Part shown: piece by piece, positions 11,435 through 46,697 of the stretch
Numbering within the stretch: the stretch's first letter is position 1
Layout of the letters: each line of letters starts with the position of its first letter
Source of the DNA: Lachnospiraceae bacterium
GTDB lineage: Bacteria; Bacillota; Clostridia; Lachnospirales; Lachnospiraceae
Reading direction: 5' to 3'
NCBI GenBank assembly: GCA_017620255.1
Contig: JAFZQU010000001.1
Location: 1-64,000 of the forward strand
Length of the DNA: 64,000 nt
Made by a program: the position numbers and the translations under genes
The notes under the pieces: model-generated
Seen by the model: the letters and a program-made list of their open reading frames with translations, nothing else
Databases searched by the model: none
Told to the model about the DNA's origin: nothing

Positions 11435-11546
11435 ACAATAGTAGCGTTAATATTTGCTATAAAAGGATTCTCGCCGGTTATTTTGAAATACGCAATCAAT
11501 TGAACAATCTTTAAAGGCGAATGTGTGGTTTGTGAGGTACAGTTAA

Positions 11547-13337: not shown

Positions 13338-13363
13338 AAACGGATAGTCGGAAGGGAGAAGAC

Positions 13364-14254: not shown

Positions 14255-14284
14255 TAATAGTCAAAAGATAGGGAGGATCAAAAA

Positions 14285-17965: not shown

Positions 17966-17995
17966 TCTGTGAGAGGTTATCCTTAGGGAGTTTGC

Positions 17996-28036: not shown

Positions 28037-28065
28037 TTGCACGCAGGGGGCAGAAATGCTATAAT
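28037..28065 (+). promoter_or_regulatory. Predicted sigma-A promoter upstream of GT2
   Basis: TTGCAC (28037-28042), a 17-base spacer, perfect TATAAT (28060-28065). It begins right after the YfhO stop. An in-frame ATG at 28075 sits 9 bases beyond the -10, as at 7605, so leaderless initiation there is possible. Confidence 0.65.
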
Positions 28066-28092
28066 TTTACACATATGAACGCGTGGGAGGCC

Positions 28093-29034: not shown

Positions 29035-29058
29035 TACTGCATTGATGGAGGAAAGATC

Positions 29059-31076: not shown

Positions 31077-32170
31077 AGAAACTGGCTATTATCGGTGCAT
31101 CTTATCTGCAACTGCCGCTGATCGAAACGGCAAAGAGCATGGGGATCGAAACGCATGTTTTTGCCTGGGCGGCAAATGATGTCGGCGAAACGGCAGCGGA
31201 CCATTTTTATCCGATCAGCATCGTGGAAAAGGAACAGATCCTTGACAAGTGCAGGGAGATCGGCGTGGACGGTATCTGCAGCATCGCATCCGATCTCGCC
31301 GCGATCACCGTCAATTATGTGGCGGCAAAGATGGGGCTGACCGGCAATTCCGTCAGATCCTCGGAGATCGCGACCAATAAATTCGAAATGCGCTGCGCTT
31401 TTGCAGAAAACGGCGATCCCTGTCCCCGCTTTTTCTGCGTGGATGATGTGCACCGTGATTTTGACCTGCCCTTCCCCGTGATCGTAAAGCCGGTCGACCG
31501 GAGCGGCAGCAGGGGTGTGACAAAGGTGTGCAGGGCAGAGGAGATCGATCCTGCCATTGACAAGGCGCTTGCCGAGAGTTTCGAGAAAAAAGCCATGATC
31601 GAGGAATTCGTTGATGGCAGGGAATACAGTGTGGAATGCATCTCTTACAGGGGAGAACACCATCTTTTGGCCGTGACGGAGAAACACACGACCGGTGCGC
31701 CGAGCTTTATCGAAACGGGGCATATGGAGCCGGCTCCGCTCACGGATGAGACAGCAGCACAGGTAAAGGACGTGGTCTTTCATGCGCTGGATACGCTGGA
31801 GGTTAAAAACGGCGCGTCCCATTCGGAGATCAAGATCGACGGAAGCGAGATCAAGATCATTGAAATCGGTGCCCGTATGGGCGGGGACCTGATCGGCAGT
31901 GATCTGGTACGTTATTCAACGGGGATCGATTTTGTCCGGGCGGTCATTGAGATCGCACTCGGAAATGCACCGGACTTAACGCCCCATGGCGAGACCTGCA
32001 GCGTGATGTGCAAATATCTGCTGACCCGTGAGGATGTTGAGATGTACAGGAAAATGCAGGAAACAGAGCCTGACCGTATCCTGAAAACGGTGAATTTTAA
32101 TCCGGACGGGATCGGCGCATTTTCCGACAGTTCACAGCGTAACGGAGGCGTGTTCGTTTTCAGAGTATGA
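31073..32170 (+). CDS. ATP-grasp ligase
   Basis: This 365-residue cytoplasmic ATP-grasp protein has an N-terminal Rossmann-like domain (IIGASYLQLPL), then ATP-grasp blocks FPVIVKPVDRSGSRGV and EEFVDGREYSVE, and the metal-binding EIGARMGGDLIG. These enzymes join a carboxylate to an amine or thiol through an acyl phosphate. Next to an SDR and a DegT aminotransferase it could couple an amino acid to an amino sugar; that is inference. It overlaps the genes on both sides by four bases, so it is part of the same translation unit. Confidence 0.88.
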   Translation: MKKLAIIGASYLQLPLIETAKSMGIETHVFAWAANDVGETAADHFYPISIVEKEQILDKCREIGVDGICSIASDLAAITVNYVAAKMGLTGNSVRSSEIATNKFEMRCAFAENGDPCPRFFCVDDVHRDFDLPFPVIVKPVDRSGSRGVTKVCRAEEIDPAIDKALAESFEKKAMIEEFVDGREYSVECISYRGEHHLLAVTEKHTTGAPSFIETGHMEPAPLTDETAAQVKDVVFHALDTLEVKNGASHSEIKIDGSEIKIIEIGARMGGDLIGSDLVRYSTGIDFVRAVIEIALGNAPDLTPHGETCSVMCKYLLTREDVEMYRKMQETEPDRILKTVNFNPDGIGAFSDSSQRNGGVFVFRV

Positions 32171-32886
32171 TGAAGCACCTTTTGATCCTTTTGACCGGAA
32201 TGGCAGCGCTGTTCCTGCTCCTTTGGAAAAACAAATACAAAACGTGGATCCTGCCGGCCATCCTGCTTCTTTTTGCAGGTGCAAACCTGTACCTGTCCGT
32301 GCGGGACCTGCCGGGTACGCTCCCGCTTACAGACAGCACCAATCAGTTGCTCTACCAGCCGGGATATCCGGAGGAGGGCGCATATCCGGACGCGGTCCTG
32401 CCGCTTATGGTAAAAAACAAGACAGTTCATACGCGTAATGATATCGAGCATTTTGAGTTTGACATGAACATTCCCGGGCGCAACCCGTGGGAAGTAAAAC
32501 TCAAAGAGATCTATCACGGCATGAACGCCGCAAATCTTTTATCGGTCATGGGCGCCGATGTGGTCATGGAAGATGCACTCAATGATGTTGTTCTTTCCGC
32601 GGACGTGAAGCGGAAGTTCACGGATCTCGGGATCTCCAATGACATGTACCGGTTTTCCAATGCAGCCAACGACATTCCCGAACTGTACGGGAATTATTTT
32701 CATTATTACTATGTTTACACGGTCCGGGGAGAAGAGATGCATGTCTATCTCTATGCGGACGATCCTGCCGTCTTTACGCCGGAAGGCACCGGAGAACTGG
32801 TGGCGCTCTGGGAAGACAAGGAAGGGTACGGGGAAGACCTCTACCTGATGAGCAAAGACTTCTATGACAGGGAGGTGGCACCGTGA
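32167..32886 (+). CDS. Unknown membrane-anchored protein
   Basis: This is a 239-residue protein with two N-terminal membrane helices (about 3-19 and 25-43) and a ~190-residue domain that would lie outside if the first helix starts inside. The domain has many Tyr/His near NYFHYYYVYTV and an acidic end. I recognise no family. Tandem ATG codons open the gene and overlap the ATP-grasp stop. The next gene begins with GTG overlapping this stop, so it is co-translated with a polytopic protein. Function unknown. Confidence 0.7.
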   Translation: MMKHLLILLTGMAALFLLLWKNKYKTWILPAILLLFAGANLYLSVRDLPGTLPLTDSTNQLLYQPGYPEEGAYPDAVLPLMVKNKTVHTRNDIEHFEFDMNIPGRNPWEVKLKEIYHGMNAANLLSVMGADVVMEDALNDVVLSADVKRKFTDLGISNDMYRFSNAANDIPELYGNYFHYYYVYTVRGEEMHVYLYADDPAVFTPEGTGELVALWEDKEGYGEDLYLMSKDFYDREVAP

Positions 32887-34406
32887 ATCTTTCTGTCCTG
32901 ACCGATCTGATCGTATCCCAGGTTTCCGCATGGGCCTATTGCAGACAGGTGCTTACCGTCCTTGCCGTCTTTTTGTACGGCTATGTCTGCGTCAGCTTTT
33001 TGTGTCCTTCCTGCAAGATCATCCGCAGGGCTGTTCTGGCTTTTCCTGCAGGCCTTGGCCTCTTTTCGGTCAGCGCCTTCCTGCTTCTGGTCTTATCTGT
33101 TCCCTACAATGTCATCAGCGTTGTGACCATGTGCGTCCTTGCGGAAGCAGGGATCGTATTTTGCGCGGTCCGTTTTGGGAAAACAGATAAAAAAGCATAT
33201 ATCGCACCAGATCAGGATCTGAAAAAGATGCTTCTGCTACTTGCGGTCGTGGTCCTTGCGGCGGCGTTTGCCTGCTCCGGTGTATTGAAGATCTCCCTGT
33301 CCAACGACTCGGTCTATAACTATTCTTTCTATCCGCGGCTACTTGTATATTTCGGGAAACTGCGGGTGAATTATGATGTGTTTTTAACGGATGTCGGTCA
33401 GGGAACCGCGCTGATCAACACGCTTCCGTTCCTGTTCGGGTTTGAGGAAAGCTTCGGCCTGCAGCACATGCTGAATTTCTCGTTTCTTGCCGCGTTCTGG
33501 ATGGCGCTGTACGAGAGGACGGATACGGAGAAAAAAGCACTGCGTATCCTGTTGCCGTGTGCCGGCGTGCTGTTGTTGCTCTCTGCTCTGCCCTATCTGA
33601 TCCTTTCCAAATGGATCCTTGCAAACGACTATTTTGCCGTATTCATGTTCCTTTGTACCGTTTTGATCGATGATGTAAGATACCGGGACGGGGTGCAGGA
33701 GAATACGGATATGCACGAGGAACTGCGTCTTCTCTGGATCCTTGTGCCGGCGCTTTCCCTGCTTAGAATTGAAGGCGGCGTATTTGTTGCTTTTTTTGTC
33801 CTGTGCGCATCCACGCAGCGGCTTGGCAGCAGGGATCTGGTCTTTGGCATGCTGGTCCCGTCCATGATCCTGCAGGGTCTGTATACGTTCAGGATCTTCT
33901 GTACCATGGAGATCACCGCACCCTATGCTTTTCTTACCCCGAAAAAAGCAGGGATGATGCTGCTTCTCATGGCGTTTGTCCTTCTGTATCTGCTGTTTGT
34001 CAGAAACCGCCGGTTCTTAAAGATCCAGTCCCATCTGGGCCTCCTGATCATTGCGGCGTTATGTCTTATCAATCTGCTGCTTCTCATCAGGGATCCGGGA
34101 GCATATTTCGGAAATCTCAAAGCCTTTTTGGACAATCTTCTGTACCGCGGAGGCTGGGGACTTCTGCCGGCAACGGTTGTAGCGCTGTATCTGGTTTCGA
34201 TCCGCCGATCCTTCCGGTTCGGATATACGGATCTGATGGCTTTTGGCTATTTTCTCTATGTTCTGGCAGTCAGCTTTATGCGGGAAGGAGATCTGCATCC
34301 GGGCGTTGGGGATTCCGGCAACAGAGTGCTGCTGCAGGTGGTTCCGCTTCTCTTATTTGCCGCGCTCTCGCATGTCCTGCCGCTCATAAAGGAGCAGGAT
34401 AGATGA
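32883..34406 (+). CDS. Polytopic membrane protein, possible GT-C fold
   Basis: This is a 507-residue protein with about eleven or twelve predicted membrane helices. Outer-loop stretches such as LSNDSVYNYSFYPR and FLTDVGQGTALI resemble the first loops of GT-C-type enzymes, but there is no motif I can tie to a family. The GTG start at 32883 has GGAGG at 32871-32875 with a 7-base spacer. It closes the operon, and the dgt promoter begins six bases after its stop. Glycosyltransferase or polymer-processing roles are guesses from context. Confidence 0.6.
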   Translation: MNLSVLTDLIVSQVSAWAYCRQVLTVLAVFLYGYVCVSFLCPSCKIIRRAVLAFPAGLGLFSVSAFLLLVLSVPYNVISVVTMCVLAEAGIVFCAVRFGKTDKKAYIAPDQDLKKMLLLLAVVVLAAAFACSGVLKISLSNDSVYNYSFYPRLLVYFGKLRVNYDVFLTDVGQGTALINTLPFLFGFEESFGLQHMLNFSFLAAFWMALYERTDTEKKALRILLPCAGVLLLLSALPYLILSKWILANDYFAVFMFLCTVLIDDVRYRDGVQENTDMHEELRLLWILVPALSLLRIEGGVFVAFFVLCASTQRLGSRDLVFGMLVPSMILQGLYTFRIFCTMEITAPYAFLTPKKAGMMLLLMAFVLLYLLFVRNRRFLKIQSHLGLLIIAALCLINLLLLIRDPGAYFGNLKAFLDNLLYRGGWGLLPATVVALYLVSIRRSFRFGYTDLMAFGYFLYVLAVSFMREGDLHPGVGDSGNRVLLQVVPLLLFAALSHVLPLIKEQDR

Positions 34407-34411
34407 GAAAG

Positions 34412-34441
34412 TATACAGGGAACACGGTTATATGGTATGAT
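34412..34441 (+). promoter_or_regulatory. Possible dgt promoter
   Basis: TATACA (34412-34417), an 18-base spacer, TATGAT (34436-34441). The -10 is good; the -35 is weak. dgt has its own ribosome site AAGGTG at 34447-34452. Confidence 0.45.
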
Positions 34442-34459
34442 ATCTCAAGGTGTGAATAA

Positions 34460-35884
34460 ATGAATTGGAAACAGTTGATGTGCGCCGACAGGCCGCAGAG
34501 CAAAACACATAAACAAAGCGACAGGGATCTTCGGACGGAGTTCGAGAGAGACTATCACAGGATCATATCTTCCGCCGCATTCCGCAGGCTCCAGGATAAG
34601 ACACAGGTATTCCCGCTCGATCAGAACGATTACATCCGTACGAGGCTGACGCACTCCCTGGAGGTTTCCTCGTTTGCCAAATCCTTAGGGCAGAGTGTCG
34701 GACAGAGGATCATCGATGAAAAGAGGGATCCAGATTTTACCCTGCAGACACAGATGGATATCGCAGATGTCCTGCAGTGCGCAGGGCTTTTGCATGATAT
34801 CGGGAATCCGCCGTTTGGTCATTTCGGTGAGAATGCGATCCAGGACTGGTTCATGGCCAACCTGCACCGGCTCACCTATGACGGAACGCCTATTTCTTCT
34901 CTCTTAAATGCCCAGATGCAGGGGGATCTGACACATTTTGAAGGGAATACCCAGGCGCTGCGCGTCGTGTCGAAACTCCATTTTCTCGTGGATGAGCGCG
35001 GCATGAACCTGACAAAGGCACTGCTTGGTACCCTGATCAAGTATCCGGGTTCTTCTCTTGAGATCGATTACGATAAGAACGATCCAAACCGCGATATATG
35101 CCGTAAGAAAATGGGGTATTTCTATGCGGAAAAAGATCTGTTCCTGGATGTGCAGGAAGCGACCGGCACCCATGGCCGCAGGCATCCGCTGGCTTTCTTA
35201 CTGGAAGCTGCCGATGATATTGCCTATACAACGGCAGACATAGAAGATGCGATCAAGAAAGGACTTCTGGATTACGGAATACTGCTGGAAGAACTCAGGA
35301 TCCGCTGTCTGCAGCGCGATACGGATGAATCCGTGAAGACACTGATCGGGCGTCTTGAAAAGCTGTACCGGCGCGCGTATGATAGGGGATATGAAAATAT
35401 GACGCTCTATGCCGTACAGAACTGGGTCATTTCTGTACAGGGAGTCCTGCTCGGGGCGGCAATAGACGGCTTTATGCAGCATTATGATGAGATCATGAAC
35501 GGCACCTACCGTTTCGCACTGCTTGATGACACGCCCGTGTCCATTCTGGTCGATGCCATGCAGGATATCGCCTACAGACATGCGTTTATCAGCAAGCCGA
35601 TCCTGAAACTGGAAGTCAAAGCGGACAGTGTGTTTGATTTTCTCCTGGACCGTTTCGTAAAGAGCATGCTCTATTACGATACGCCGCTCTGGAAGGAAAA
35701 TCACACGGCTGTGGACGAGAAGATCGTCATGCTGATGAGCGAGGATTATATGCGCATCTACCGGATCTTCTCGAAAGACAAGGACGATGCGGAGAAACTG
35801 TATCTGCGCATGCTGATGGTAACGGACTATATCTCGGGCATGACGGATGGATTTGCAACACGGATGTATGAGGAACTGAGATGA
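34460..35884 (+). CDS. dgt: dGTP triphosphohydrolase (dGTPase)
   Basis: This HD-domain hydrolase splits dGTP to deoxyguanosine and tripolyphosphate in the cytoplasm. At 474 residues it fits the Dgt family. Metal ligands are H65 in RLTHSLEV and H112-D113 in LLHDIGNPPFGH; the family opening RRLQDKTQVFPL is present. A housekeeping-type gene is unusual here, but its stop overlaps the start of the adenylation gene (ATGA), so it leads the dlt-like operon. No metabolic link to that operon is evident. Confidence 0.95.
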   Translation: MNWKQLMCADRPQSKTHKQSDRDLRTEFERDYHRIISSAAFRRLQDKTQVFPLDQNDYIRTRLTHSLEVSSFAKSLGQSVGQRIIDEKRDPDFTLQTQMDIADVLQCAGLLHDIGNPPFGHFGENAIQDWFMANLHRLTYDGTPISSLLNAQMQGDLTHFEGNTQALRVVSKLHFLVDERGMNLTKALLGTLIKYPGSSLEIDYDKNDPNRDICRKKMGYFYAEKDLFLDVQEATGTHGRRHPLAFLLEAADDIAYTTADIEDAIKKGLLDYGILLEELRIRCLQRDTDESVKTLIGRLEKLYRRAYDRGYENMTLYAVQNWVISVQGVLLGAAIDGFMQHYDEIMNGTYRFALLDDTPVSILVDAMQDIAYRHAFISKPILKLEVKADSVFDFLLDRFVKSMLYYDTPLWKENHTAVDEKIVMLMSEDYMRIYRIFSKDKDDAEKLYLRMLMVTDYISGMTDGFATRMYEELR

Positions 35885-37386
35885 TACAGAGAACGATAAT
35901 CGATTATTTACGGAAGGCGGCAGAAGAGTGCCCCGATAAATGTGCCTATTTTGACGATTCCCTGAAACTGTCCTACGGACGGCTTAATACACTTGCCAGA
36001 GGGATCGCGACGAGGCTGATCGGAAAACTGCAGGTCACCTGCAGACCCGTGGCGGTCTATATGGACAAATCGCCCATGATGATCGCGGCATTCTTCGGGA
36101 CGGTCTATTCCGGGAATTTCTATGCACCGATCGATACTTCCATGCCGGATTACCGGCTGAAACTGGTCATGGAAAACTTAAAACCCGTGGGCATCATTAC
36201 GGATGCTTCCCACTATGATGTGGCAAGGGCCTACTGCAGTAACGTGTTCCTGATCGAGGAATTCGGAGATGAGACGATCGACGATGCACTGATCGAGACG
36301 CAGTTATCCCACGTGCTGGATACGGATCCGCTTTATGTGCTCTACACATCGGGCTCCACCGGCGTTCCCAAGGGTGTTGTGGTATCCCATGCGGCGCTGA
36401 TCGACTATATTGATGAATTCTGTGCGGCGATCCCGATCGGTCCGGATGACATCGTGGCCAACCAGGCCCCGTTCTACTTCGATGCATCCCTGATCGACAT
36501 CTACTGCACCCTGCACGAGGGTGCGACCATGGGGATCGTTCCGCTTTCTTCTTTCTCGGTACCCGTAAAACTGCTCACCTATCTGGAAGAGAACAAGATC
36601 ACGTTTATCCGCTGGGTGCCCTCGGCGCTGAAAATGATCTCCACGCTCAAAGGCTTCAAGACGCTGAAACCTTCCCACTTAAAGACGGTGGTGTTCGGTG
36701 CGGAGGCCATGCCGGTCAAGTGCTACAACTACTGGTACGAAAATCTGCCGGATGTACAGTTCATCCAGATCTACGGACCTACCGAGATCACCGGCGTGTG
36801 CACCTACTATTTCTGTGACCGCGCCTATGAAGAGAGCGAGACCATTCCGATCGGCAAAGCGTTCCACAATACGTCCGTATTTCTGCTGGATGAGGACAAC
36901 AAGCGCATCAGCCGTAAGGATGTTGCGGGAGAGATCTGTGTCAAAGGGACCTGTCTGGCGCTCGGCTATTACAATGCACCGGAAAAGACCGCTGAATTCT
37001 TTGTACAGAATCCCTTAAACCCCTACTTCCCGGAGCGGATCTACAGGACCGGGGATCTGGCAAAATACAATGAAAACGGCGACCTTGTGTTCATCAGCCG
37101 GAAGGATTATCAGATCAAACATATGGGGCACAGGATCGAACTCGGGGAGATCGAGGCAACGGCCGCTTTCCTGCCCGGGATCCGGAATGCTTACTGCATT
37201 CATGATCCGGTGAAAGACAAGATCATCATGTTCTACGAATCGGACACCTATGACGACAAGAGCCTTACGGAAGACCTCAAAAAAAGACTCGTGCGTTACA
37301 TGGTACCGAATGAAGTCAGAAAGCTTGATCATATGCCGATGCTGAAAAACGGCAAAGTAGACAGAATGAAACTGAAGGAGATGTAA
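35881..37386 (+). CDS. DltA-like amino-acid adenylation enzyme, altered specificity pocket
   Basis: This 501-residue ANL-superfamily enzyme would activate an amino acid with ATP and load it onto the carrier protein encoded next. Core motifs: TSGSTGVPKG near 156-165, YGPTE at 298-302, YRTGD at 388-392, and catalytic K492 in NGKVDR. Asp201 in YFDASLID corresponds to the DltA aspartate that holds the substrate amino group, so an amino acid is likely. The cysteine that shapes the D-alanine pocket in DltA (FCGE) is Gly273 here (FGAE), so D-alanine is doubtful. Downstream are carrier protein, MBOAT and SGNH genes in dltABCD style, then a glutamate 2,3-aminomutase-like gene. Adenylation is firm; the substrate is inferred. 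Confidence 0.9.
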   Translation: MIQRTIIDYLRKAAEECPDKCAYFDDSLKLSYGRLNTLARGIATRLIGKLQVTCRPVAVYMDKSPMMIAAFFGTVYSGNFYAPIDTSMPDYRLKLVMENLKPVGIITDASHYDVARAYCSNVFLIEEFGDETIDDALIETQLSHVLDTDPLYVLYTSGSTGVPKGVVVSHAALIDYIDEFCAAIPIGPDDIVANQAPFYFDASLIDIYCTLHEGATMGIVPLSSFSVPVKLLTYLEENKITFIRWVPSALKMISTLKGFKTLKPSHLKTVVFGAEAMPVKCYNYWYENLPDVQFIQIYGPTEITGVCTYYFCDRAYEESETIPIGKAFHNTSVFLLDEDNKRISRKDVAGEICVKGTCLALGYYNAPEKTAEFFVQNPLNPYFPERIYRTGDLAKYNENGDLVFISRKDYQIKHMGHRIELGEIEATAAFLPGIRNAYCIHDPVKDKIIMFYESDTYDDKSLTEDLKKRLVRYMVPNEVRKLDHMPMLKNGKVDRMKLKEM

Positions 37387-37389
37387 AGA

Positions 37390-37617
37390 ATGGAAGAATT
37401 ACGTGAGATTTTGGAAGGCATTCATCCGGAAGTCGACTATGACTCGGAAACCGGCCTGATCGACCGCAGGATCTTTGATTCGTTCGATGTGATCACACTG
37501 GTCGGCGAACTCATGGACCATTTTGACGTGGAGATCACCGCGGAGCAGATGGTGCCCGATCACTTTAATTCCATGCAGGCCATCTGGAGTCTGCTGGAAG
37601 AACTGATGGAAGAATAA
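37390..37617 (+). CDS. DltC-like carrier protein
   Basis: This 75-residue acidic carrier protein has its phosphopantetheine serine at Ser31 in IFDSFDVI. The D-S-F wording, with EITAEQMVPDHFNSM after it, is very close to DltC. GGAG at 37377-37380 is spaced 9 bases from the ATG. It starts three bases after the ligase stop and overlaps the MBOAT start by one base. It would hand an aminoacyl thioester to the membrane acyltransferase. Confidence 0.93.
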   Translation: MEELREILEGIHPEVDYDSETGLIDRRIFDSFDVITLVGELMDHFDVEITAEQMVPDHFNSMQAIWSLLEELMEE

Positions 37618-39212
37618 TGTCGCTCATATCCATAGAATTTTTGTGTTTCTGCCTGGTGCTTGTCCTTCTGTTCTATCTGATAAAGGGACCTTATCAGTGG
37701 ATCATCCTGCTGGTCGCAAGCATTGCGTTCTATTGCTTCTGCGGACCGAAATACATCGTCTATATCCTTGTGACGGCTACGACGGTCTATTTTACGGCGC
37801 GCGGGATCGAGGGATTTTCAAAAAAACGGGACGCTTATCTTGCAGACCATAAGGAAACGCTTGGCAGAGAAGAGAAAAAAGCATATAAAGCTGACATCAA
37901 GAGCAGACAGAAGCGGCTCTTGTTTTTGTGTATCCTTTTGAATGTCGGGATCCTTGCGACGCTTAAATATCTGGATTTCGGGATCGCATATTTTAACTAT
38001 TACCGGCTGATGCTGACGGGAAATACGAACCTTGTGCTCCAGCCCATGCTGATCCTGCCGCTCGGGATCTCGTTTTACACGTTTCAGAGCCTCGGCTACG
38101 TGATCGATGTCTATTACGGGAAAGTGAAGGCAGAGCGGCAGTATTTCCGTTTCCTGCTGTTTGTCAGTTTTTTCCCGCAGATCATACAGGGACCGATCTC
38201 CCGTTTTGCGGATCTGGAACCCCAGCTGTTTACGCCGAAGCGTTTTGAAACGGAACGGATCAAATCGGGGCTTTATCGGATCCTGTTCGGTCTGTTCAAG
38301 AAACTGGTGATCGCGGACAGGCTGTCCGCCTATGTGACAAGGACCGCGGCGTTTCGGGAAGATTACAAAGGGATCTATCTCCTGCTCTGTATCTTCTTTT
38401 ATGCGTTCCAGATCTACGGTGATTTTTCCGGCGGGATCGATGTGGCGATCGGTACCGCGGAACTGTTCGGGATCCGGCTGACGGATAACTTCGAGCGGCC
38501 GTTCTTTTCAAAGAGTATCGCCGAATACTGGAGAAGATGGCATATCACGCTCGGGACATGGTTCCGGGATTATATCTTTTATCCCCTGTCCGTGAACAAA
38601 CGTGTCCTGAACCTCGGAAAGTGGTGCAGAAGCCATCTTGGCGAAGGGGTCGGTAAACGCGTGCCCATCTATCTGCCGATGATCGCCGTGTGGGCACTGA
38701 CCGGAATGTGGCACGGTTCGGAGAGCAAATATATCGTCTGGGGACTCTGCAACTGTTTTTTCCTGATCCTCGGAACGGAAGCAGAGCCGTTTTCCGCGCG
38801 GATCATGGAAAAACTGCATCTTCGTAACGACATGTTTGTAATGAAGTGTTACCGGATCTTCAAGACGTTCTGGCTGATGTCTTTCCTGCGCGTGTTTGAT
38901 TTTGTCAAAACCCCGCGGGACGGATTCTGCATGATCCGTGACGCGTTTATAAAGTGGGATACCTTTGACTGGCATGAAGTATACACGACGCTGCTGTTCC
39001 CCAAAGAAGAGGTGATCGTGGCGTTTGTTGCGATCATACTGCTGACGGTGGTGTCCCTGATCCAAAGGAAAGGCCGGATCGCGGACCGTCTGCTGAAAAA
39101 ATCACCCTGGATACAGTATTCCACGCTTGCTGCCTTTGCACTGCTCATTCTGATCTTTGGCAGTTACGGACTCGGATATGACGCACAGAGCTTTATTTAT
39201 ATGAATTTCTGA
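37617..39212 (+). CDS. MBOAT acyltransferase of the dlt-like operon (DltB-like)
   Basis: This is a 531-residue polytopic MBOAT. The catalytic histidine is H366 in GMWHGSESK; the second conserved histidine is H309 in RRWHITLGTW. The family block PLGISFYTFQSLGYVIDVYYGK is complete. It has a charged cytoplasmic loop at about 70-105 that DltB usually lacks. It sits directly after the carrier gene and before an SGNH partner, as in dltABCD. Expected role: pass the carrier-bound aminoacyl group outward to a surface polymer. Confidence 0.93.
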   Translation: MSLISIEFLCFCLVLVLLFYLIKGPYQWIILLVASIAFYCFCGPKYIVYILVTATTVYFTARGIEGFSKKRDAYLADHKETLGREEKKAYKADIKSRQKRLLFLCILLNVGILATLKYLDFGIAYFNYYRLMLTGNTNLVLQPMLILPLGISFYTFQSLGYVIDVYYGKVKAERQYFRFLLFVSFFPQIIQGPISRFADLEPQLFTPKRFETERIKSGLYRILFGLFKKLVIADRLSAYVTRTAAFREDYKGIYLLLCIFFYAFQIYGDFSGGIDVAIGTAELFGIRLTDNFERPFFSKSIAEYWRRWHITLGTWFRDYIFYPLSVNKRVLNLGKWCRSHLGEGVGKRVPIYLPMIAVWALTGMWHGSESKYIVWGLCNCFFLILGTEAEPFSARIMEKLHLRNDMFVMKCYRIFKTFWLMSFLRVFDFVKTPRDGFCMIRDAFIKWDTFDWHEVYTTLLFPKEEVIVAFVAIILLTVVSLIQRKGRIADRLLKKSPWIQYSTLAAFALLILIFGSYGLGYDAQSFIYMNF

Positions 39213-39213
39213 T

Positions 39214-40233
39214 ATGAAACCAAAAACAAAACGCATTCTGCGGATCGTCTGCATGCTGGCGCTGACCGTTTTCCTGTTTTGGACCGTGAACCTTCTGTTC
39301 ATGCCCAAATACATCGAAAAGGACCCGGACGGCAGGATCACCGCGGAATTCTACCGGGAAAAACTGAATAACGATGTGATCTTTACCGGATCTTCCACGG
39401 TCTATGCGGGGATCAATCCGATCACGCTCTGGAAAGAATACGGACTGACCTCTTATGACCGTTCCAATTCTTCCCAGACGGCCTGGATCGCCTATTATAT
39501 GATCAAGGATGCCATCGCGGTCGCAAAGCCGAAACTGGTGGTGCTCGATGTCGGGTTCTTTTATGTAGCGGATGACTATGCGGAAGAAGCGGAAAACCGC
39601 AAAACACTGGATGACATGCGGATCGGCAGGGAGAAATTCCAGTGTATGAAAACGGTCATGACGGAAGATGAAACCGTGAAAGATTACCTGTTTCCGATCT
39701 TGCGGTTCCATACGCGCTGGAAATATCTGACGGCGGAGGATTTCAAATACCTGTATTACAAGCCGAGTGTCACGTATAACGGTTATATCCGTTCCGACCT
39801 CGTGGAGCCGGCTGCTGCAGAGAAGAAAGAAGAGAACCTGCAGGACGTGCGCTTATCCAATCGGAACGGGCTGTTCCTTGAGAATATCCTGCAACTGTGC
39901 CGGGATGAACAGATACCGGTGCTGCTCATCAAAACGCCTTCTCACGATCCCAAGTGGGGTGATGAGTTTGAAGCGGACCTTAAGTTTGTTGCAGATCCGT
40001 ACGGTGTGGACTATATTAATTTTGATGACTATACGGATGAGATCGGCCTTGATTATTCCAAAGATACGCCGGATGGCGGCGGACATCTGAACGCAAGCGG
40101 AGCGGAAAAGTTCTCGAAATATCTGGGTGCATACCTGACAGAGCATTTTACGCTTACAGATCATAGAAATGATCCTGCCTATGTGAAAGTATGGCAGGAA
40201 AAATGTGAGAGATACGACAATGGACAACAATAA
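39214..40233 (+). CDS. SGNH/DltD-like partner protein
   Basis: This is a 339-residue protein with one N-terminal membrane helix (about 9-29) and an extracytoplasmic SGNH-like domain. The nucleophile block is IFTGSSTVYAGINP (serine near residue 59), and the D-x-x-H block is DGGGHLNASGAEKF. The tail LTDHRNDPAYVKVW is shared with the partner at 16448. By analogy with DltD it helps move the acyl group from MBOAT to the polymer. Its 3' end overlaps the aminomutase gene by 14 bases. Its own ribosome site is weak, suggesting coupling to the MBOAT gene. Confidence 0.87.
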   Translation: MKPKTKRILRIVCMLALTVFLFWTVNLLFMPKYIEKDPDGRITAEFYREKLNNDVIFTGSSTVYAGINPITLWKEYGLTSYDRSNSSQTAWIAYYMIKDAIAVAKPKLVVLDVGFFYVADDYAEEAENRKTLDDMRIGREKFQCMKTVMTEDETVKDYLFPILRFHTRWKYLTAEDFKYLYYKPSVTYNGYIRSDLVEPAAAEKKEENLQDVRLSNRNGLFLENILQLCRDEQIPVLLIKTPSHDPKWGDEFEADLKFVADPYGVDYINFDDYTDEIGLDYSKDTPDGGGHLNASGAEKFSKYLGAYLTEHFTLTDHRNDPAYVKVWQEKCERYDNGQQ

Positions 40234-41446
40234 GAGAGAGATATCCCTGAAACGTGCGGAAGAACTGCATGAGGAGATCAGGGATTACCTGACATTTAAA
40301 AACGAATATCTGATGGATATGAGCATGCGCAGGGACGTCATGAGCCTGCAGCATAAAAAGGATCTGCTGGATTATTTCGGCGCAAGCGAAGAGGACTGGA
40401 ATGACTGGCACTGGCAGTTAAAGAACCGGATCGGTTCCGCGGATGTGCTGAAACACTTTATGCACTTAAGTCCTGCGCAGGTGGATCTTCTGAATGAGAT
40501 CTCCGCGAAATACCGCTGGGCCACCACACCCTATTACCTGTCGCTCATGGATTACGAGAACCTCGCATATCCGATCGACCGTATGGCGATCCCGAGCGCG
40601 GAGGAACTGGATGAGAGCGGGGAACTCGACCCCATGCATGAGGAATACACAAACCCGGCAGCCTGCATCACACGCAGATATCCGAACCGGCTCATCATCA
40701 ACGTGACCAGCTCCTGTGCGATGTTCTGCAGACACTGTCAGCGGCGCAGAAGGATCGGGGAATGCGATAAGATCGAACCGGATCACCGTATCCAGGAAGC
40801 GATCGATTATATCAAGGCCACGCCGGAGATCAGGGACGTACTGATCACGGGCGGGGATCCGCTGATGCTGCCCGATGAGATCCTGGAATCCATCATCGCC
40901 AGAGTCCGTGCGATCGAACATGTGGAGATCATCCGGATCGGAACGAGGCTTCCCGTGACGATGCCGCAGCGCATCACGAAGGAACTTGTGCAGATGCTCT
41001 CCAAGTATCATCCGCTGTTTATCAACACGCAGTTCAACCATCCGGGCGAGATCACGAAAGATGCCGCAAGAGCCTGCAACATGCTCGCAGACGCCGGCAT
41101 TCCGCTTGGCAACCAGATGGTATTCCTGAAAGGCATCAATAACGATAAATACATCGTGCAGCTCTTAAATGAGCAGCTTTTGAAGGTCAGAGTCAGACCG
41201 TATTACATCTTCCATCCAAAGCAGGTTAAGGGAACGGGACATTTTGCGATCCGTGTCGAGGAAGGACTTGCGATCATGAAATACCTGCGCGGCCATACCT
41301 CGGGACTTGCGATCCCGCAATATATCCTGAACGCACCGGGCGGTCTCGGAAAGATCCCGCTCCTGCCGCAGTACATTGAAGAGATGGACGATGCGCATGT
41401 GGTCATGCATACGTGGGAAGACAAAGAAGTGGAGATCATATACTAG
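40220..41446 (+). CDS. eam: Glutamate 2,3-aminomutase-like radical SAM enzyme
   Basis: This 408-residue KamA-family enzyme has C166-x3-C170-x2-C173 for the 4Fe-4S/SAM cluster and K378 in GGLGKIP for PLP. Lysine 2,3-aminomutase binds the substrate side chain with two aspartates (293 and 330 in the clostridial enzyme). Here these are K334 (HPKQVKG) and N371 (LNAPGG), the pair reported for clostridial glutamate 2,3-aminomutase, with the same 37-residue spacing. The product would be beta-glutamate. The ATG at 40220 has GAGAG eight bases upstream; an in-frame GTG at 40205 is less likely. It overlaps the dlt-like operon, so beta-glutamate may be the acyl cargo; otherwise it may serve as osmolyte. 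Confidence 0.88.
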   Translation: MDNNKREISLKRAEELHEEIRDYLTFKNEYLMDMSMRRDVMSLQHKKDLLDYFGASEEDWNDWHWQLKNRIGSADVLKHFMHLSPAQVDLLNEISAKYRWATTPYYLSLMDYENLAYPIDRMAIPSAEELDESGELDPMHEEYTNPAACITRRYPNRLIINVTSSCAMFCRHCQRRRRIGECDKIEPDHRIQEAIDYIKATPEIRDVLITGGDPLMLPDEILESIIARVRAIEHVEIIRIGTRLPVTMPQRITKELVQMLSKYHPLFINTQFNHPGEITKDAARACNMLADAGIPLGNQMVFLKGINNDKYIVQLLNEQLLKVRVRPYYIFHPKQVKGTGHFAIRVEEGLAIMKYLRGHTSGLAIPQYILNAPGGLGKIPLLPQYIEEMDDAHVVMHTWEDKEVEIIY

Positions 41447-42157
41447 ATGGACAGTTTGTATGTTGTAATGCCTGCCTACAATGAGGAGGCCAATATTGAA
41501 CAGGTTGTCAGACAGTGGTATCCTGTGCTTCTCGGCAAAGATGAACGGTCACGGATCGTGATCGCGGATGCCGGGTCCACGGACAGTACACATGCGATCT
41601 TAACGCGTCTTACACAGGAGTTCCCGCAGCTTGAGATCCTCACGGAAAGCGACAGGCAGCATGGACCGAAGCTGATCGCACTCTATAAAAAAGCGATCGA
41701 AGATCAGATCGATTATGTGTTCCAGACCGATTCCGACGGGCAGACGGATCCCGTGGAATTCAACGCCTTCTGGGATGAACGGATGCTCTATGACGGGATC
41801 TTCGGAAACAGAACGGTAAGAGGCGACGGGAAGTCGCGTGCGTTTGTGGAGAAGGTGGTATGCATGTTGCTGCGCCTGTATTTTAAGGTGCGCGTGCCGG
41901 ACGCCAACGCACCCTTCAGGCTCATGAAAGTCTCCACACTGGCCAAATACATGGACAGGCTGCCGGATGACTACAATATCCCGAATATCATGCTCACCAC
42001 GTTTTTTGTGCGCTATCATGAGAAATGCAGTTTTAAGGTGATCTCATTCAAACCGAGACAGGGCGGGAAAAACTCCATCAACATCCGCAAGATCATCGGG
42101 ATCGGATGGAAGGCACTGAAAGACTTCAGAGGTTTCAAAAAAGGAATGAAGGCGTGA
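41447..42157 (+). CDS. Family 2 glycosyltransferase, polyprenyl-phosphate type
   Basis: This is a 236-residue GT-A enzyme. MPAYNEEANI and IADAGSTDST form the nucleotide site, and TDSDGQTDP carries the D-x-D metal motif. It lacks C-terminal membrane helices, like DPM1-type enzymes. It begins directly after the aminomutase stop (TAGATG) and overlaps the next, GT-C-like gene (GTGA). Together with the small transporter pair downstream this makes a complete charge-flip-transfer set. Donor sugar unknown. Confidence 0.9.
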   Translation: MDSLYVVMPAYNEEANIEQVVRQWYPVLLGKDERSRIVIADAGSTDSTHAILTRLTQEFPQLEILTESDRQHGPKLIALYKKAIEDQIDYVFQTDSDGQTDPVEFNAFWDERMLYDGIFGNRTVRGDGKSRAFVEKVVCMLLRLYFKVRVPDANAPFRLMKVSTLAKYMDRLPDDYNIPNIMLTTFFVRYHEKCSFKVISFKPRQGGKNSINIRKIIGIGWKALKDFRGFKKGMKA

Positions 42158-43770
42158 AAGCACTGAAGACCTATGTGGATCTGTTTAAAAAAGAGAACAT
42201 CGTACTGAAACTGTTTACGGTTCTGTTGCTTTTGTTCACCGTCTATTTTCTTGTGTGGGTCATGCAAGGATTTATCCTGGGGCTTTCCTATCCGAAGGAA
42301 CGGTATGAACTGGTCAATCTGAACCTGGCAGAAGCATTTTTAAACGGTCAAAACCCGTATCTGCTCGAAAGTCTTTCCGGCGACAGCACCCATACGCCGG
42401 TTGTTTATCTGTATCCGTTTGTCAACAGTCTGCTCGCGGGCGGACTTTCTTTTCTCTTTGGCGGAAATGTCCTGCTTTCCCTTTACATTGTAAGTTTCCT
42501 TGCCATGATCTTAAGCGGGTTACTTGCTTTCCTGCTTGTTTTACGATACAGCCGTACGACGGTAGGGCCTGCGCTCGCCTTTCTGCTCGTGATGTTCTGT
42601 CACTGGCGCTACGGCTATACCAGTGCCGCGCCCGACGCGCTCGGGATCTTCGTGACGCTTCTGACGCTGTATCTTGCCGTACATCCGACGCTGAAACATA
42701 AACCGCTCTGGTGTTCGCTTGGTATCGTGCTCACGTTTTACATCAAGTTATATTTTGTCGGGATCTGTATCAGCATCTTCCTGTATATGTGGTTCAGGTC
42801 CAAACGGGATGCACTGAAACTGTTTTTATACTGCGTGTTCTTTACCGGCGTCAGTGTGGCGCTGATCGCCGTTTTTTGGCCGCTTTACTGGGACTATACG
42901 GTCATGACGATGTTCTACGGATCCAATGCGACAGGAACCGGCACGCAGTCGCAGACCGGCGGGATCGCTTATTTCTTTGAGCAGTTTCTCTATTTAAGCC
43001 GCATCTTTGCGGGATTTTACCTGATGATCGCGGCAGCGTTTGTATGGGACCTGATCCGGAAAAAAAGAGGCGGGAAAGCTGAGCGGATCGGAGATGAGAT
43101 ACTGCTCTTTGGTATACAGATCCCGGTACAGCTTCTGATGCTGCTCTTTTTTGCCAGACATGACGGGGCTTATCTCACCTATTTCCTGCAGTTACTCTTT
43201 CCGTCGCTCATCATCTACGCACTGATCCGGACGGAACAGATCGAAATACAGGGGCATGAAAAGATCTATATGGCCTGTTATGTGGCACTCTCTGTTTTTA
43301 CCGTGTATTTCGGGTTCAGGAAACTGCCGATGCATCTTTTGAACGATACGGAGATCGCAACCTGGGAGAGTGCATATACGCTGATGGATGAATACAGGGA
43401 ACAGGGAGAAGTCCTGAATTATTATCCGACGGCTTTCGAAGGGGTACAGAACGGGGACACGATCTTTGCGACGGGGCATGACAATGCAGCCATGGATGAT
43501 AACAGACAGGAGCAGTGGGAGAGCGATCCACTCGGGCAGACGTTGTTTCCGGATGCCGGACTGCTCTTTGAGACTTTTGACCGTTACGAAGAGGATGCAC
43601 TGAATAAGATCGAGGAACAGGAATACGCACTTGTTACCTGCCCGGTTGACGGGGAATGGTTTGTGGACGGAGAACTTCTGTCTTCGTACGGTTATACAGA
43701 GGTGGCCGAATATGACCTGCAGGTCGGAAACATGGTTTATCCTACGGAATTCTGGGGTGCAGTTCAATAG
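42154..43770 (+). CDS. GT-C-like polytopic glycosyltransferase
   Basis: This is a 538-residue protein with about ten to twelve membrane helices and a ~110-residue soluble tail. The first outer loop (LVNLNLAEAFLNGQNPY) resembles GT87/ArnT-like enzymes. I place the start at GTG 42154, overlapping the previous stop, with AAGGA at 42141-42145; an upstream in-frame ATG at 42106 lies inside the GT2 gene. It would use an undecaprenyl-phosphate sugar outside the cell. Acceptor unknown. Confidence 0.75.
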   Translation: MKALKTYVDLFKKENIVLKLFTVLLLLFTVYFLVWVMQGFILGLSYPKERYELVNLNLAEAFLNGQNPYLLESLSGDSTHTPVVYLYPFVNSLLAGGLSFLFGGNVLLSLYIVSFLAMILSGLLAFLLVLRYSRTTVGPALAFLLVMFCHWRYGYTSAAPDALGIFVTLLTLYLAVHPTLKHKPLWCSLGIVLTFYIKLYFVGICISIFLYMWFRSKRDALKLFLYCVFFTGVSVALIAVFWPLYWDYTVMTMFYGSNATGTGTQSQTGGIAYFFEQFLYLSRIFAGFYLMIAAAFVWDLIRKKRGGKAERIGDEILLFGIQIPVQLLMLLFFARHDGAYLTYFLQLLFPSLIIYALIRTEQIEIQGHEKIYMACYVALSVFTVYFGFRKLPMHLLNDTEIATWESAYTLMDEYREQGEVLNYYPTAFEGVQNGDTIFATGHDNAAMDDNRQEQWESDPLGQTLFPDAGLLFETFDRYEEDALNKIEEQEYALVTCPVDGEWFVDGELLSSYGYTEVAEYDLQVGNMVYPTEFWGAVQ

Positions 43771-43784
43771 GTGAGAGGATACAT

Positions 43785-44141
43785 ATGAAAGAAAAAAGCA
43801 GCCGGATCGGCATTTTTATCATACTGCAGATCATGAACGTACTGTATTCCATCAACAGCGTTCTGATCAAGGTCGTTTCCACGCGGTGGGAATCGCAGGG
43901 GCTTTTTAAGCCCGTGACACTGCTACTGCTGTTTGCGGCGGTTGCGGTGCTGGGAGTGTATGCGATCCTATGGCAGAAGATCCTGACTAAAGTGGATCTG
44001 ACGGTTGCGTATATGTGTAAAGGCATGATCATTTTCTGGGGAATGTTGTGGGCTTTCCTGATCTTCGGGGAACAGATCACGGCATGGAACCTTGCAGGAA
44101 CGGTCATTATATTTGCAGGAACGTATCTGGTGACATCATGA
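43785..44141 (+). CDS. Small EamA/SMR-like transporter subunit, pair 2 (first)
   Basis: This 118-residue, four-helix protein is related to the subunit at 22593: compare VDLTVAYMCKGMIIFWG with LPLTVAYANKAVSVIWA. A GAGAGGAT ribosome site lies before the ATG. It overlaps its partner by ATGA. Placed after a GT2 and a GT-C gene, it fits an ArnE/F-like flippase half. Confidence 0.82.
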   Translation: MKEKSSRIGIFIILQIMNVLYSINSVLIKVVSTRWESQGLFKPVTLLLLFAAVAVLGVYAILWQKILTKVDLTVAYMCKGMIIFWGMLWAFLIFGEQITAWNLAGTVIIFAGTYLVTS

Positions 44142-44485
44142 ACATTTATATCGCGATAGGTATTTATACGGTCAGCGGCCTGGTGGCTGCGCTCTCACAA
44201 CTGATCCTGAAATTCGCGGCCATGAAGCCAAATGGCAGACAGGGACTGATGCAGTATCTGGATTACAGGATCATCTTATCTTACGGGATGCTGTTTGCAA
44301 CGATCTTTTTCAATATGATCGCCATGCGCTACATGCCGTATAAGTATGCGCCCGTACTTGCCTCACTCTCTTATGTGTTCGTGCTGATCCTCGGAAGATT
44401 CGTGTTACACGAAGAGATCGGCAAAAAGAGGATGATCGGGATCATTCTTATCTTTCTCGGGATGTTTGTTTTCCAGATCGGTTAG
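44138..44485 (+). CDS. Small EamA/SMR-like transporter subunit, pair 2 (second)
   Basis: This is a 115-residue, four-helix protein. ALSQLILKFAAMK and the closing RFVLHEEIGKKRMIG match the subunit at 23056 in layout. The ATG at 44138 overlaps the previous stop; a longer in-frame opening at 44048 lies wholly within the previous gene. Its last 38 bases overlap the 3' end of a gene on the other strand, with no terminator between. Confidence 0.82.
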   Translation: MNIYIAIGIYTVSGLVAALSQLILKFAAMKPNGRQGLMQYLDYRIILSYGMLFATIFFNMIAMRYMPYKYAPVLASLSYVFVLILGRFVLHEEIGKKRMIGIILIFLGMFVFQIG

Positions 44486-46697
44486 TATAAAAGATGTATC
44501 CGTAAAGTGCAGCAGTTCCAAGCAGTGAGATCAGAGCGCTGACATAGAACAGAGGATGCATTGTAAACCGGATATCGATCACCTGAGGGCTTTCGCTCTG
44601 TGTCAGGGCCAGCATGATCCGGTTATGCTCACTGTTTATGATGGGCAGTTCCACGCCCTCTGCATTATAGGCATGATATCCCTTGTAATAGAACAGGGGG
44701 AATTCCATATAATTATCCGCACTCTTACAGATGTATTCATAGTGGACCGAGGTTCCGTTCTTTAAGTACACCAGATTTTCCACACTATCCCAATCCCCGC
44801 AATTCGGAAGAGAAGACTCATAGAAAGAAATATCCGTTCCGGCAGGAAGGTAACCGGCCTGCTTGTAATAGATATTGCCGGTCATACGGTCATGTACGCA
44901 GGTATCACAATTTGCGATCTGCCGGCAGCTTGTGAGCGTCCCGAGGAAGACGGCAACGAGAAGAAGCGCAGTCATGCCGGTACAAAGCCGTTTCTTCGGT
45001 GCATCCTCTGCCGCGCGGATGATGCCTGCGACAAAGATGGCAAATCCAAGCGAGATCGCAGATGTGCCCGCAAGCATAAAGCGTTCCGCAAACTGGAAGG
45101 ACTGCAGGGCACTGTATATGGGACCCAGATAGGAAACCGGTTTCCACGGGAACAGGGCCGTAGACATCCAGAACAGGATAAAGCCGGCTATGAGCAGATA
45201 TATACAGAAGACACTCTGCCTCGGCTCCCATGCGGTATTGATCCTTTTTTTCAGGATGCATGCAGCCAGGATGATCACGAGTACAAGCAGGAGCAGATGG
45301 TAGGCGCCGCTTTCAGACAGAAAACTGACAGACAGCGGCTGCAGGGTGTTTAAAAACTCGAGTTTCATCGTCCCGACAGAGAGCCCCCAGCTGTAATAAT
45401 ATACAAACGGAACGATCGTGGAAAGACCGGTAACAAGAAAGACACCTACCGCCTTTAACAGAGACAGAAAGATCTTTCCGATCTTTGCTTTTAGGTTCTG
45501 TTTTCTCCAAAGAATAAGCAGGGCAAAGAGCAAAGTGATCACGCTTAGGACAATGCCCAGAACAAAAGAGAGGATATGCGAACACAGTTGTCCCGCCACC
45601 GCAATGGTGAGCAGATACCAGTGTTTACCATCCTTAAAGAAGATGTCGTAAAGGGCTGTGAACAATAAGGGGAAAAACATGAGTGCGATCCCCATGCCGA
45701 GCGCCTGTCCGCCCCCGTACATCACATACATGCGGTACGGAAAGAAGGTAAAGAGAATGGCGGAGATCAGGGCAGCCATGGCTGAACCGGACATGTATTT
45801 TGCGCAGAAATAAACGATCAGAAGCGAGGCAAGATTGATCAGGAACAGGATCGTTCCAAGGGATGCTACCATGGAAACACCGCGGTTACGCAGGAGGCCG
45901 GGAAGGTAGAGAAACTTGTCCGGATAAATACAGCTGATCTCTCCGTAATCGTTGCAGTAATTCGGATAAATGACCGTCGGAAGCCTGTGCTCGGAGAGCG
46001 CATAACTCACGCCGTCCATACGCATCAGATGCGGTCTGGTATCCGTCCCCATCCAGAGCCGTCCCAAAAAGACCGGAAAACTTACGATGAAAGCCGCCAG
46101 TGTAAGGAGTCCGGCGGTAAGCCACTGCTGTTTGGTAAAATGCAGCTTTTTCCACATAAACCATATGCAGACAGGAAGCAGCAGACCGGTCAGAACGGTC
46201 AGGATCATAAAGTACTCATAATCCGTATAGAGCGGCGCGGACGATGTGATCGTGATATCACGGACAGAAAGCGTTCCGCTGCCGTCATAGACCAGCCACG
46301 CATGGAAATGATCGGAAGCGGGCCAGACCGAAAAGGTTTCGCTGACCTGCGTTTCGGAAGCAGGCAGGGGGATATAGCGGTCCAGATTGCTGTTTGGAGA
46401 AATGTGCAGTTTGTTGTCTCCGGTGCTTTCATAGGTGATCGTGATCGTGTAATCGCCGCTCCTTAAATGTGCCGCAGGCGGATCCGCAAACACCCCGTTA
46501 AATCCGGAAGTCTCATCCACTGTCAGTACGCCCTCCGCATCCACGTGACCGGCGTTCAGTGAAAAGGTATTCAGGTCATAGGAATATGCATATTCCGTGC
46601 TGCGCATGCGGTTAAAGTAAAATAACAGCAACAGCAGCAGGATCGCGTACGCAGTCAGGATCAGCGCGTGATTTTTATGCAGGGTTGTTTTTTTCAT
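44448..46697 (-). CDS. Large YfhO-like GT-C protein with N-terminal beta domain
   Basis: This 749-residue membrane protein is a paralogue of those at 51303 and 55061. Order: one helix (about 10-27), an extracytoplasmic beta-rich domain (about 40-155; blocks SGDYTITITYE and GSGTLSVRDITI), about eleven helices, a soluble C-terminal domain with FPLFYYKGYHAYN, and a final helix. The acidic outer-loop motif is GTDTRPHLMRMDG, comparable with YDGFFHCSR in the paralogue. It is the last gene of a three-gene minus-strand operon, overlapping the fusion gene by 23 bases. Likely a surface glycosyltransferase; donor unknown. Confidence 0.75.
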   Translation of the reverse strand: MKKTTLHKNHALILTAYAILLLLLLFYFNRMRSTEYAYSYDLNTFSLNAGHVDAEGVLTVDETSGFNGVFADPPAAHLRSGDYTITITYESTGDNKLHISPNSNLDRYIPLPASETQVSETFSVWPASDHFHAWLVYDGSGTLSVRDITITSSAPLYTDYEYFMILTVLTGLLLPVCIWFMWKKLHFTKQQWLTAGLLTLAAFIVSFPVFLGRLWMGTDTRPHLMRMDGVSYALSEHRLPTVIYPNYCNDYGEISCIYPDKFLYLPGLLRNRGVSMVASLGTILFLINLASLLIVYFCAKYMSGSAMAALISAILFTFFPYRMYVMYGGGQALGMGIALMFFPLLFTALYDIFFKDGKHWYLLTIAVAGQLCSHILSFVLGIVLSVITLLFALLILWRKQNLKAKIGKIFLSLLKAVGVFLVTGLSTIVPFVYYYSWGLSVGTMKLEFLNTLQPLSVSFLSESGAYHLLLLVLVIILAACILKKRINTAWEPRQSVFCIYLLIAGFILFWMSTALFPWKPVSYLGPIYSALQSFQFAERFMLAGTSAISLGFAIFVAGIIRAAEDAPKKRLCTGMTALLLVAVFLGTLTSCRQIANCDTCVHDRMTGNIYYKQAGYLPAGTDISFYESSLPNCGDWDSVENLVYLKNGTSVHYEYICKSADNYMEFPLFYYKGYHAYNAEGVELPIINSEHNRIMLALTQSESPQVIDIRFTMHPLFYVSALISLLGTAALYGYIFYTNRSGKQTSRER

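Follow-up and report, generated by a model that had tools for sequence, protein, structure and literature searches.

A probable Dlt-like surface aminoacylation cassette with a linked, putative glutamate 2,3-aminomutase in Lachnospiraceae

Which amino acid does a Dlt-like operon put on the cell surface when its ligase has a pocket other than that of DltA and the last gene encodes an aminomutase? The question is raised by five genes at positions 35881–41446 of a 64,000-nucleotide stretch of DNA from a Lachnospiraceae bacterium (GenBank contig JAFZQU010000001.1, here called the window), which belongs to contig 23 in a genome of 2.93 Mb and 99.8% completeness. An initial annotation, made from the letters alone, had described a dltABCD-like order followed by an overlapping KamA-family gene, and all five genes were found at that place. 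We consider it probable that they form a Dlt-like system for surface aminoacylation that makes its own substrate, beta-glutamate, and attaches it to a surface polymer. The computed evidence consists of the parts themselves, the conserved linkage of the aminomutase to the other genes, a pocket unlike that for D-alanine, the change of that pocket in species without the aminomutase, and the sequence motifs.

Parts of the cassette

All five genes lie head to tail on the forward strand. The ligase gene (35881–37386, 501 residues) encodes an amino acid-adenylating, stand-alone domain resembling DltA, and its start overlaps the stop of a dGTPase gene (34460–35884). The DltC-like carrier protein (37390–37617, 75 residues) was recognized by a family-model match, and its likely phosphopantetheine site, by motif, is Ser31 in FDSFD. 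The DltB-like MBOAT acyltransferase (37617–39212, 531 residues) has the WHG motif with the catalytic His, and the membrane-anchored, DltD-like SGNH protein (39214–40233, 339 residues) has GSST near residue 60 together with D287 and H291. The aminomutase gene (40205–41446) overlaps the end of the SGNH gene; read from GTG its product has 413 residues, and the ATG at 40220, which gives 408 residues, is probably the better start.

Against curated family models, the ligase matched an amino acid adenylation model best (344 bits), with DltA next, and scored 274.9 bits with the DltA equivalog TIGR01734, which has a cut-off of 560. The carrier reached 23.9 bits with the DltC equivalog (cut-off 68) and the MBOAT 149.6 bits with the DltB equivalog (cut-off 375); the SGNH protein had no NCBIfam match and a Pfam match below the cut-off. 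The best PDB match of the predicted SGNH model (mean pLDDT 88.7) was DltD of S. pneumoniae (3bma), at E 3.2e-4 and a TM score of only 0.38, and the predicted ligase model (pLDDT 80.6) matched nonribosomal peptide synthetase adenylation domains and DltA (3e7w).

In the Dlt system, according to the available text of PMC12148441, DltB moves D-alanine from the carrier to the Tyr of an FXYXXF motif in DltX, and DltD passes it on to the polymer. The window leaves no room for DltX directly upstream of the ligase, where the dGTPase stop overlaps, and open reading frames shorter than 60 residues were not searched. The MBOAT itself ends in FIYMNF (39192–39209), an FXYXXF motif of the acyl-shuttle type, and among aligned MBOAT rows, repeats included, WHG was present in 57/57 and FXYXXF in 54/57. 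With its catalytic His, C-terminal FXYXXF and adjoining SGNH protein, it has the features by which an MBOAT-SGNH pair is recognized. Because of the FIYMNF end and the recurrence of the motif, the protein resembles an MBOAT that is fed by a carrier and has its shuttle built in.

The fifth gene encodes a radical S-adenosylmethionine/pyridoxal phosphate enzyme that scored 600.5 bits with the glutamate 2,3-aminomutase model TIGR04368, 178 above the next family, and 422 bits with the lysine 2,3-aminomutase model. Its radical cysteine motif, CAMFCRHC, lies at 40715–40738, and the pyridoxal phosphate lysine position is kept (aligned to 2a5h). At the two side-chain positions it has Lys (codon 41219–41221) and Asn (codon 41330–41332), both of which are Asp in aligned lysine-type enzymes. 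These residues are K339 and N376 when counted from GTG, and K334 and N371, as the initial annotation had numbered them, when counted from ATG. The same pair, which we take to mark glutamate 2,3-aminomutases, is common to stand-alone glutamate-type relatives (106/114 aligned rows, repeats included). A lysine-type identity was ruled out by the scores and by these two residues. One stand-alone aminomutase, L141, has Lys/Ser in place of Lys/Asn.

Linkage and pocket

The initial annotation had called for a search of other genomes for the ligase-aminomutase adjacency, and we found it conserved in the genus and in further Lachnospiraceae genera. The genus sample comprised 37 genomes, searched with the window proteins as references at thresholds of at least 68% identity for the aminomutase and at least 59%, near full length, for the ligase. 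The aminomutase was present in 29 genomes, the ligase in 31, and both in 27, and all 29 genomes with the aminomutase also have cassette genes. G022 and G027 have the aminomutase without a full ligase, yet carrier, MBOAT, SGNH and aminomutase lie together in both, and the G022 contig starts at the carrier. Ligase and aminomutase are on separate contigs in G018 and G036, the ligase occurs without the aminomutase in G008, G011, G026 and G032, and neither was found in G005, G028, G029 and G030.

Neighbour clustering covered 27 loci, of which three had been picked as lacking the aminomutase; proteins shorter than 80 residues, hence the carrier, were not counted. Ligase, MBOAT and SGNH were present at 27/27 loci and the aminomutase at 24/27, and a tyrosyl-tRNA synthetase (identified by eye) ranked next, at 16/27. 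The four genes from ligase to SGNH, in most cases joined by the aminomutase, recur together in congeners despite differing surroundings, which include the tyrS site, a greA-like site (by eye; three loci, other genera), and the surface-sugar island of the window. In some congeners the set is interrupted by trpS or by other genes: trpS stands between SGNH and aminomutase in L051, L052, L055 and L064, and the first three of these loci have putative lipoprotein genes (by eye) between ligase and carrier.

Beyond the genus, the aminomutase was found at E <1e-120 in five of 397 drawn Lachnospiraceae genomes, the window's own included. The full cassette is present in G112, G300 and G332, and in G424 carrier, MBOAT, SGNH and aminomutase share one contig, with a matching ligase fragment on another. 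Named relatives of the aminomutase were examined as the best 80 of 412 matches, with up to 8 kb of DNA per side and less on short contigs. In this set, 31 aminomutases have 62% identity or above, and 29 of them are accompanied by cassette genes, 20 by the ligase together with the remaining cassette and 9 by part of it; the other 2, one on a 4.4 kb contig and one at a contig start, show none. Ligase and carrier were found beside 0/49 of those at 57% identity or below within the same up to 8 kb per side; six of the 49 had only a 21–26% ligase match and two (L146, L152) an MBOAT. Four family-level relatives (G148, G142, G084, G114) have D/D residues and no match to the window ligase in the surrounding DNA. 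The named loci that match the congeners come from Lachnospiraceae metagenome bins, many of them from the rumen.

These data indicate that the cassette is carried by rumen and gut Lachnospiraceae and that the linkage of the aminomutase is conserved, not local. The initial annotation would have abandoned its idea had the adjacency been confined to this genome and the enzyme served osmolyte synthesis only; the idea survived, the more distant aminomutases lacking ligase plus carrier within the flanking DNA examined. Among the distant loci, a Treponema bin (L146:8001-13001) carries a glutamate-type aminomutase within what by eye is a dTDP-rhamnose cluster, along with an MBOAT and an SGNH-like protein and with no ligase match; this may be a different way of bringing beta-glutamate to a surface glycan.

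We read the specificity code of the ligase as DAIRVGIGVK, formed by D201, A202, I205, R244, V271, G273, I297, G305, V306 and K492. These were mapped by motif to what we take to be the pocket positions of PheA (235, 236, 239, 278, 299, 301, 322, 330, 331 and 517); the codons of I205, R244 and I297 are at 36493–36495, 36610–36612 and 36769–36771. Gly273 occupies the place of the DltA pocket Cys and Asp201 is retained, as had been remarked initially; canonical DltA (L208; G594, 701 bits) reads DLMTLCTVAK, with Cys at 301. The pattern DAIR[VI]GIG[VI]K was present in 32/32 examined ligases whose genome has the aminomutase, namely 27 from the genus and those of G112, G300, G332, G424 (a fragment) and L124. 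Arg at 278 was in all cassette ligases read and in none of the other code classes read.

The available portions of PMC3207962, PMC10548584 and PMC12283262 give DLTKVGHI and DLTKVGHVGK as Asp codes and DAKDLGVV and DAQDLGVVDK as Glu-type codes. Arg278 together with Gly301 resembles the Asp class, although Asp-activating domains have Lys where this ligase has Arg. By chemical inference, beta-glutamate is beta-homo-aspartate: it has one more CH2 than Asp, adjacent to the activated carboxyl, and the distance from amino group to distal carboxylate would stay that of Asp.

Three species of the genus retain the four genes from ligase to SGNH at the corresponding location between tyrS and pheS (both identified by eye) and have no glutamate-type aminomutase that we could find in genomes of 99% (G011), 99% (G026) and 70% (G032) completeness. 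In all three a 6S RNA gene is directly 3' of SGNH; in three checked relatives (L054, L059, L060) 6S RNA follows the aminomutase. A tree of 68 ligases placed the cassette ligases in one clade (100/100) with these three nested inside it (100/100), so loss of the aminomutase in place is the simplest account. The other KamA protein of G026 is lysine-like (D/D, 40% identity) and is therefore not a hidden replacement; that of G032 also has 40% identity.

The ligases of these three species read DAVRIGNGVK. Of 144 columns invariant in 31 ligases from genomes with the aminomutase, only three, E98D, I205V and I297N, differ in all three of the others, and two of these, I205V and I297N, fall among eight invariant pocket positions (hypergeometric P 0.008). 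In eight control clades, the pocket change was at most a V/I exchange at 299 or 331.

On the proposed route, the aminomutase would convert L-glutamate to beta-glutamate (3-aminoglutarate), and the ligase would adenylate it and load it as a thioester onto the 75-residue carrier. The MBOAT would pass the residue across the membrane onto the Tyr in its C-terminal FIYMNF tail, and the SGNH protein would move it from there to a surface polymer, presumably by forming an ester. Beta-glutamate as the residue loaded, flow in this direction, an ester linkage and a polymer as acceptor are what we infer. The earlier proposal of a decoration with beta-glutamate or another non-D-alanine amino acid gained from the linkage, the pocket change and the non-D-alanine pocket, with beta-glutamate itself still the putative residue. 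As to the acidic or zwitterionic group that had been suggested, zwitterionic is the better term, because a beta-glutamate ester would carry one positive and one negative charge; the product would be a zwitterionic substituent in place of the cationic D-alanine ester.

Partner enzymes of related ligases

Ligases were detected at E <1e-125 in 104 of the 397 Lachnospiraceae genomes, cassette ligases included, most of them at 40–49% identity. We surveyed partner enzymes within 6.5 kb of 81 distinct ligases, at some loci shorter than 6.5 kb per side; the set joined part of the 104-genome list, mostly the better-scoring ligases, with genus paralogs and a few cassette ligases. An amino acid racemase adjoined 27/35 ligases with the DAKC code and 0/46 others (Fisher 1e-14), and one further DAKC ligase has a decarboxylase instead. 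A LysA-like, pyridoxal phosphate-dependent decarboxylase adjoined 21/29 ligases with the DVK code and 1/52 others (6e-12). The aminomutase accompanied 7/8 DAIR ligases, the eighth being at a contig end, and 0/73 others.

Two racemases were scanned against family models, and both were above the TIGR00035 cut-off, one of them also above that for cysteate racemase; two scanned decarboxylases resemble LysA and the exosortase-associated decarboxylase, below cut-off. The remaining partner enzymes were assigned by blastp to the scanned racemases and decarboxylases. Formyltransferase-like genes, found with 4 DVK and 2 other ligases of the survey, showed no clear association (P 0.18). Dlt-like ligases in L214, L219 and L097 adjoin such a gene (Fmt/ArnA type, below cut-offs), which might point to an N-formylated amino acid. 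Contigs 39 and 12 of the window's own genome carry two further DltA-like ligases (L069:4841-9160 and L070:1286-2797), with codes DAKDMLLGDK and, in an unsure alignment, VMLDTAGYTK; neither has the DltA-type Cys at 301.

We hold it evenly balanced whether Lachnospiraceae possess a family of Dlt-like systems for surface aminoacylation built on a modular plan, in which every system has its own pocket and a dedicated enzyme that makes its amino acid. In such a family, glutamate 2,3-aminomutase would supply beta-glutamate, an Asp/Glu/cysteate-type racemase a D-acidic amino acid, and the LysA-like decarboxylase the substrate of a third class; many custom amino acids beyond D-alanine would be used, and specificity would switch by pocket mutation with gain or loss of the enzyme.

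Alternative readings and known systems

Several points weigh against beta-glutamate on a surface polymer. The aminomutase score of 600.5 bits is under the curated 650-bit cut-off of TIGR04368, which was reached in 0/100 Lachnospiraceae genomes and 0/14 control genomes. The ligase retains the alpha-amino-binding Asp at position 235, and VinN-type adenylation domains for beta-amino acids reportedly shift this Asp. G008 has the DAIR code with no aminomutase found, on a contig that ends inside the MBOAT gene, and in G027 no ligase adjoins the carrier, a 94-residue fragment on another contig being all that was detected. I205V is conservative, like the V/I exchanges of the control clades, and only I297N is drastic. 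Loss of the aminomutase and change of code are moreover one evolutionary event, and the P value rests on one branch, so the pocket change counts as strong but not independent evidence. The code classes of the partner survey are likewise clades, which makes its statistics non-independent and its Fisher values descriptive. The acceptor polymer is putative, and an older review of methanogen solutes reports that early nuclear magnetic resonance data argued against the formation of beta-glutamate by an aminomutase.

The alternatives to be weighed are not mutually exclusive, and our estimates for them are not shares of one total. It is unlikely, in our judgement, that the residue loaded by the ligase is an acidic alpha-amino acid of the ordinary kind (L-Asp or L-Glu) and that the beta-glutamate made by the aminomutase serves a separate purpose, as osmolyte or in some other step. 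The Asp kept at position 235, the Asp-like Arg278/Gly301 and the three species that keep the four-gene set without the aminomutase would suit this account, but it leaves unexplained both the co-occurrence of the aminomutase clade with ligase genes and the change of the pocket where the aminomutase is absent. An osmolyte role of some stand-alone relatives is suggested by one of nine loci scanned (L165), where the aminomutase lies ~280 bases behind a c-di-AMP riboswitch (L165:7502-7720), and a paper on the Na+ riboswitch lists eam (beta-glutamate) as one of the osmoprotectant genes. In contrast, positions 28000–46000 of the window had no Rfam match, and eight named cassette loci scanned had no riboswitch. 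An aminomutase for osmolyte synthesis only is disfavoured by the linkage; the riboswitch contrast itself (1/9 stand-alone against 0/8 cassette loci) is weak.

It is improbable that the aminomutase acts on another acidic substrate or on a carrier-bound residue and yields a different beta-amino acid or a mixture. The score under the curated cut-off could be read in this way, as could the incednine enzyme IdnL4, which has the same assigned reaction and for which the available part of PMC11284099 states that activity was not seen in vitro; against it stands the K/N pair shared with the stand-alone glutamate-type relatives (106/114 rows). Ordinary D-alanylation by a diverged DltA, with the aminomutase as a passenger, shares the logic of ligase, carrier, MBOAT and SGNH and would agree with the structural neighbours DltD (3bma) and DltA (3e7w). 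We nonetheless find it very improbable, given a code of DAIRVGIGVK in place of DLMTLCTVAK, scores of ligase, carrier and MBOAT below the Dlt cut-offs with no NCBIfam match for SGNH, and a conserved linkage to the aminomutase. A further reading, in which the MBOAT and SGNH pair moves the carrier-bound residue to a secreted small molecule or a lipid, concerns the acceptor alone and is compatible with beta-glutamate. The window's own genome has no match to PF00884 (LtaS-type) and hence no obvious type I lipoteichoic acid, but those MBOAT-SGNH pairs with an FXYXXF tail that are known modify envelope polymers, and the window has glycosyltransferase and surface-sugar genes and its genome two matches to CDP-glycerol glycerophosphotransferase (PF04464); we judge such an acceptor distinctly improbable. 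Type I lipoteichoic acid was rejected as the defining target, PF00884 having 0 matches in the own genome and being present in 20/37 genus genomes.

The surroundings of the cassette form a surface-sugar island with several glycosyltransferase and surface-sugar genes. Directly after the aminomutase, a family-2 glycosyltransferase gene (41447–42157, forward strand) belongs to the context and not to the core, since among the compared loci it lies 3' of the cassette only in the close relatives G010 (81%) and G031 (79%). At 29059–32170, consecutive genes for an epimerase, a DegT-type aminotransferase and an ATP-grasp ligase perhaps make an aminoacylated sugar for a surface glycan. A second envelope-acylation set at 9933–19204 comprises an MBOAT, an FkbH-like protein and another MBOAT and, by eye, a small acyl carrier (14285–14527), a glyoxalase-like protein and SGNH-like proteins; it is possibly a glyceryl- or lactyl-carrier-fed system.

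The system proposed here, with beta-glutamate as the surface substituent, is closest to D-alanylation by DltXABCD, with which it shares a ligase, a small carrier, an MBOAT and an SGNH protein in one operon and the same chemical logic. It differs in a pocket that is not that of DltA, in FXYXXF fused to the MBOAT with no room for DltX directly upstream of the ligase, and in an operon that includes the presumed substrate-making aminomutase. That enzyme shares with glutamate 2,3-aminomutase a 600-bit score, the K/N pair, the radical motif and the pyridoxal phosphate lysine position, but it is below 650 bits and its Lachnospiraceae group is tied to surface genes rather than standing alone. The Alm system of V. 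cholerae, which puts glycine on lipopolysaccharide, is, as far as its source portion goes, also a Dlt-like activation of a non-D-alanine amino acid for the surface, whereas it is Gram-negative, uses glycine and has an unrelated final transferase. To our knowledge, no substrate-making enzyme belongs to Alm.

PatAB and other MBOAT-SGNH acyltransferases have the C-terminal FXYXXF on the MBOAT and an SGNH partner, and the available text of PMC12148441 states that MBOATs without DltX carry FXYXXF at their own C-terminus and that PatA uses acetyl-CoA; the window MBOAT is, in contrast, presumably fed by an aminoacyl carrier. In incednine biosynthesis, as far as the accessible part of PMC11284099 describes it, a cluster-borne aminomutase (IdnL4, assigned as glutamate 2,3-aminomutase) likewise feeds an adenylation route with enzyme and carrier (IdnL3, IdnL1), but there a decarboxylation of beta-glutamate comes first, and its destination is a polyketide instead of a surface polymer. 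The initial annotation knew of no described system of this kind, which stands within the open-licence literature: a search there found no paper joining beta-glutamate with teichoic acid, and no title found concerns a beta-glutamate/aminomutase- or racemase-linked Dlt-like surface system.

In many Gram-positive bacteria, D-alanylation sets the charge of the wall and resistance to host cationic peptides. If the proposed system is real, a zwitterionic beta-amino acid would alter polymer charge, host recognition and degradability in rumen and gut bacteria. It would also give a structural role to beta-glutamate, which figures in the sources cited here as an osmolyte and, in one case, as the precursor from which an antibiotic starter unit is made. 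The pairing of code with partner enzyme, finally, suggests substrates for whole classes of uncharacterised ligases.

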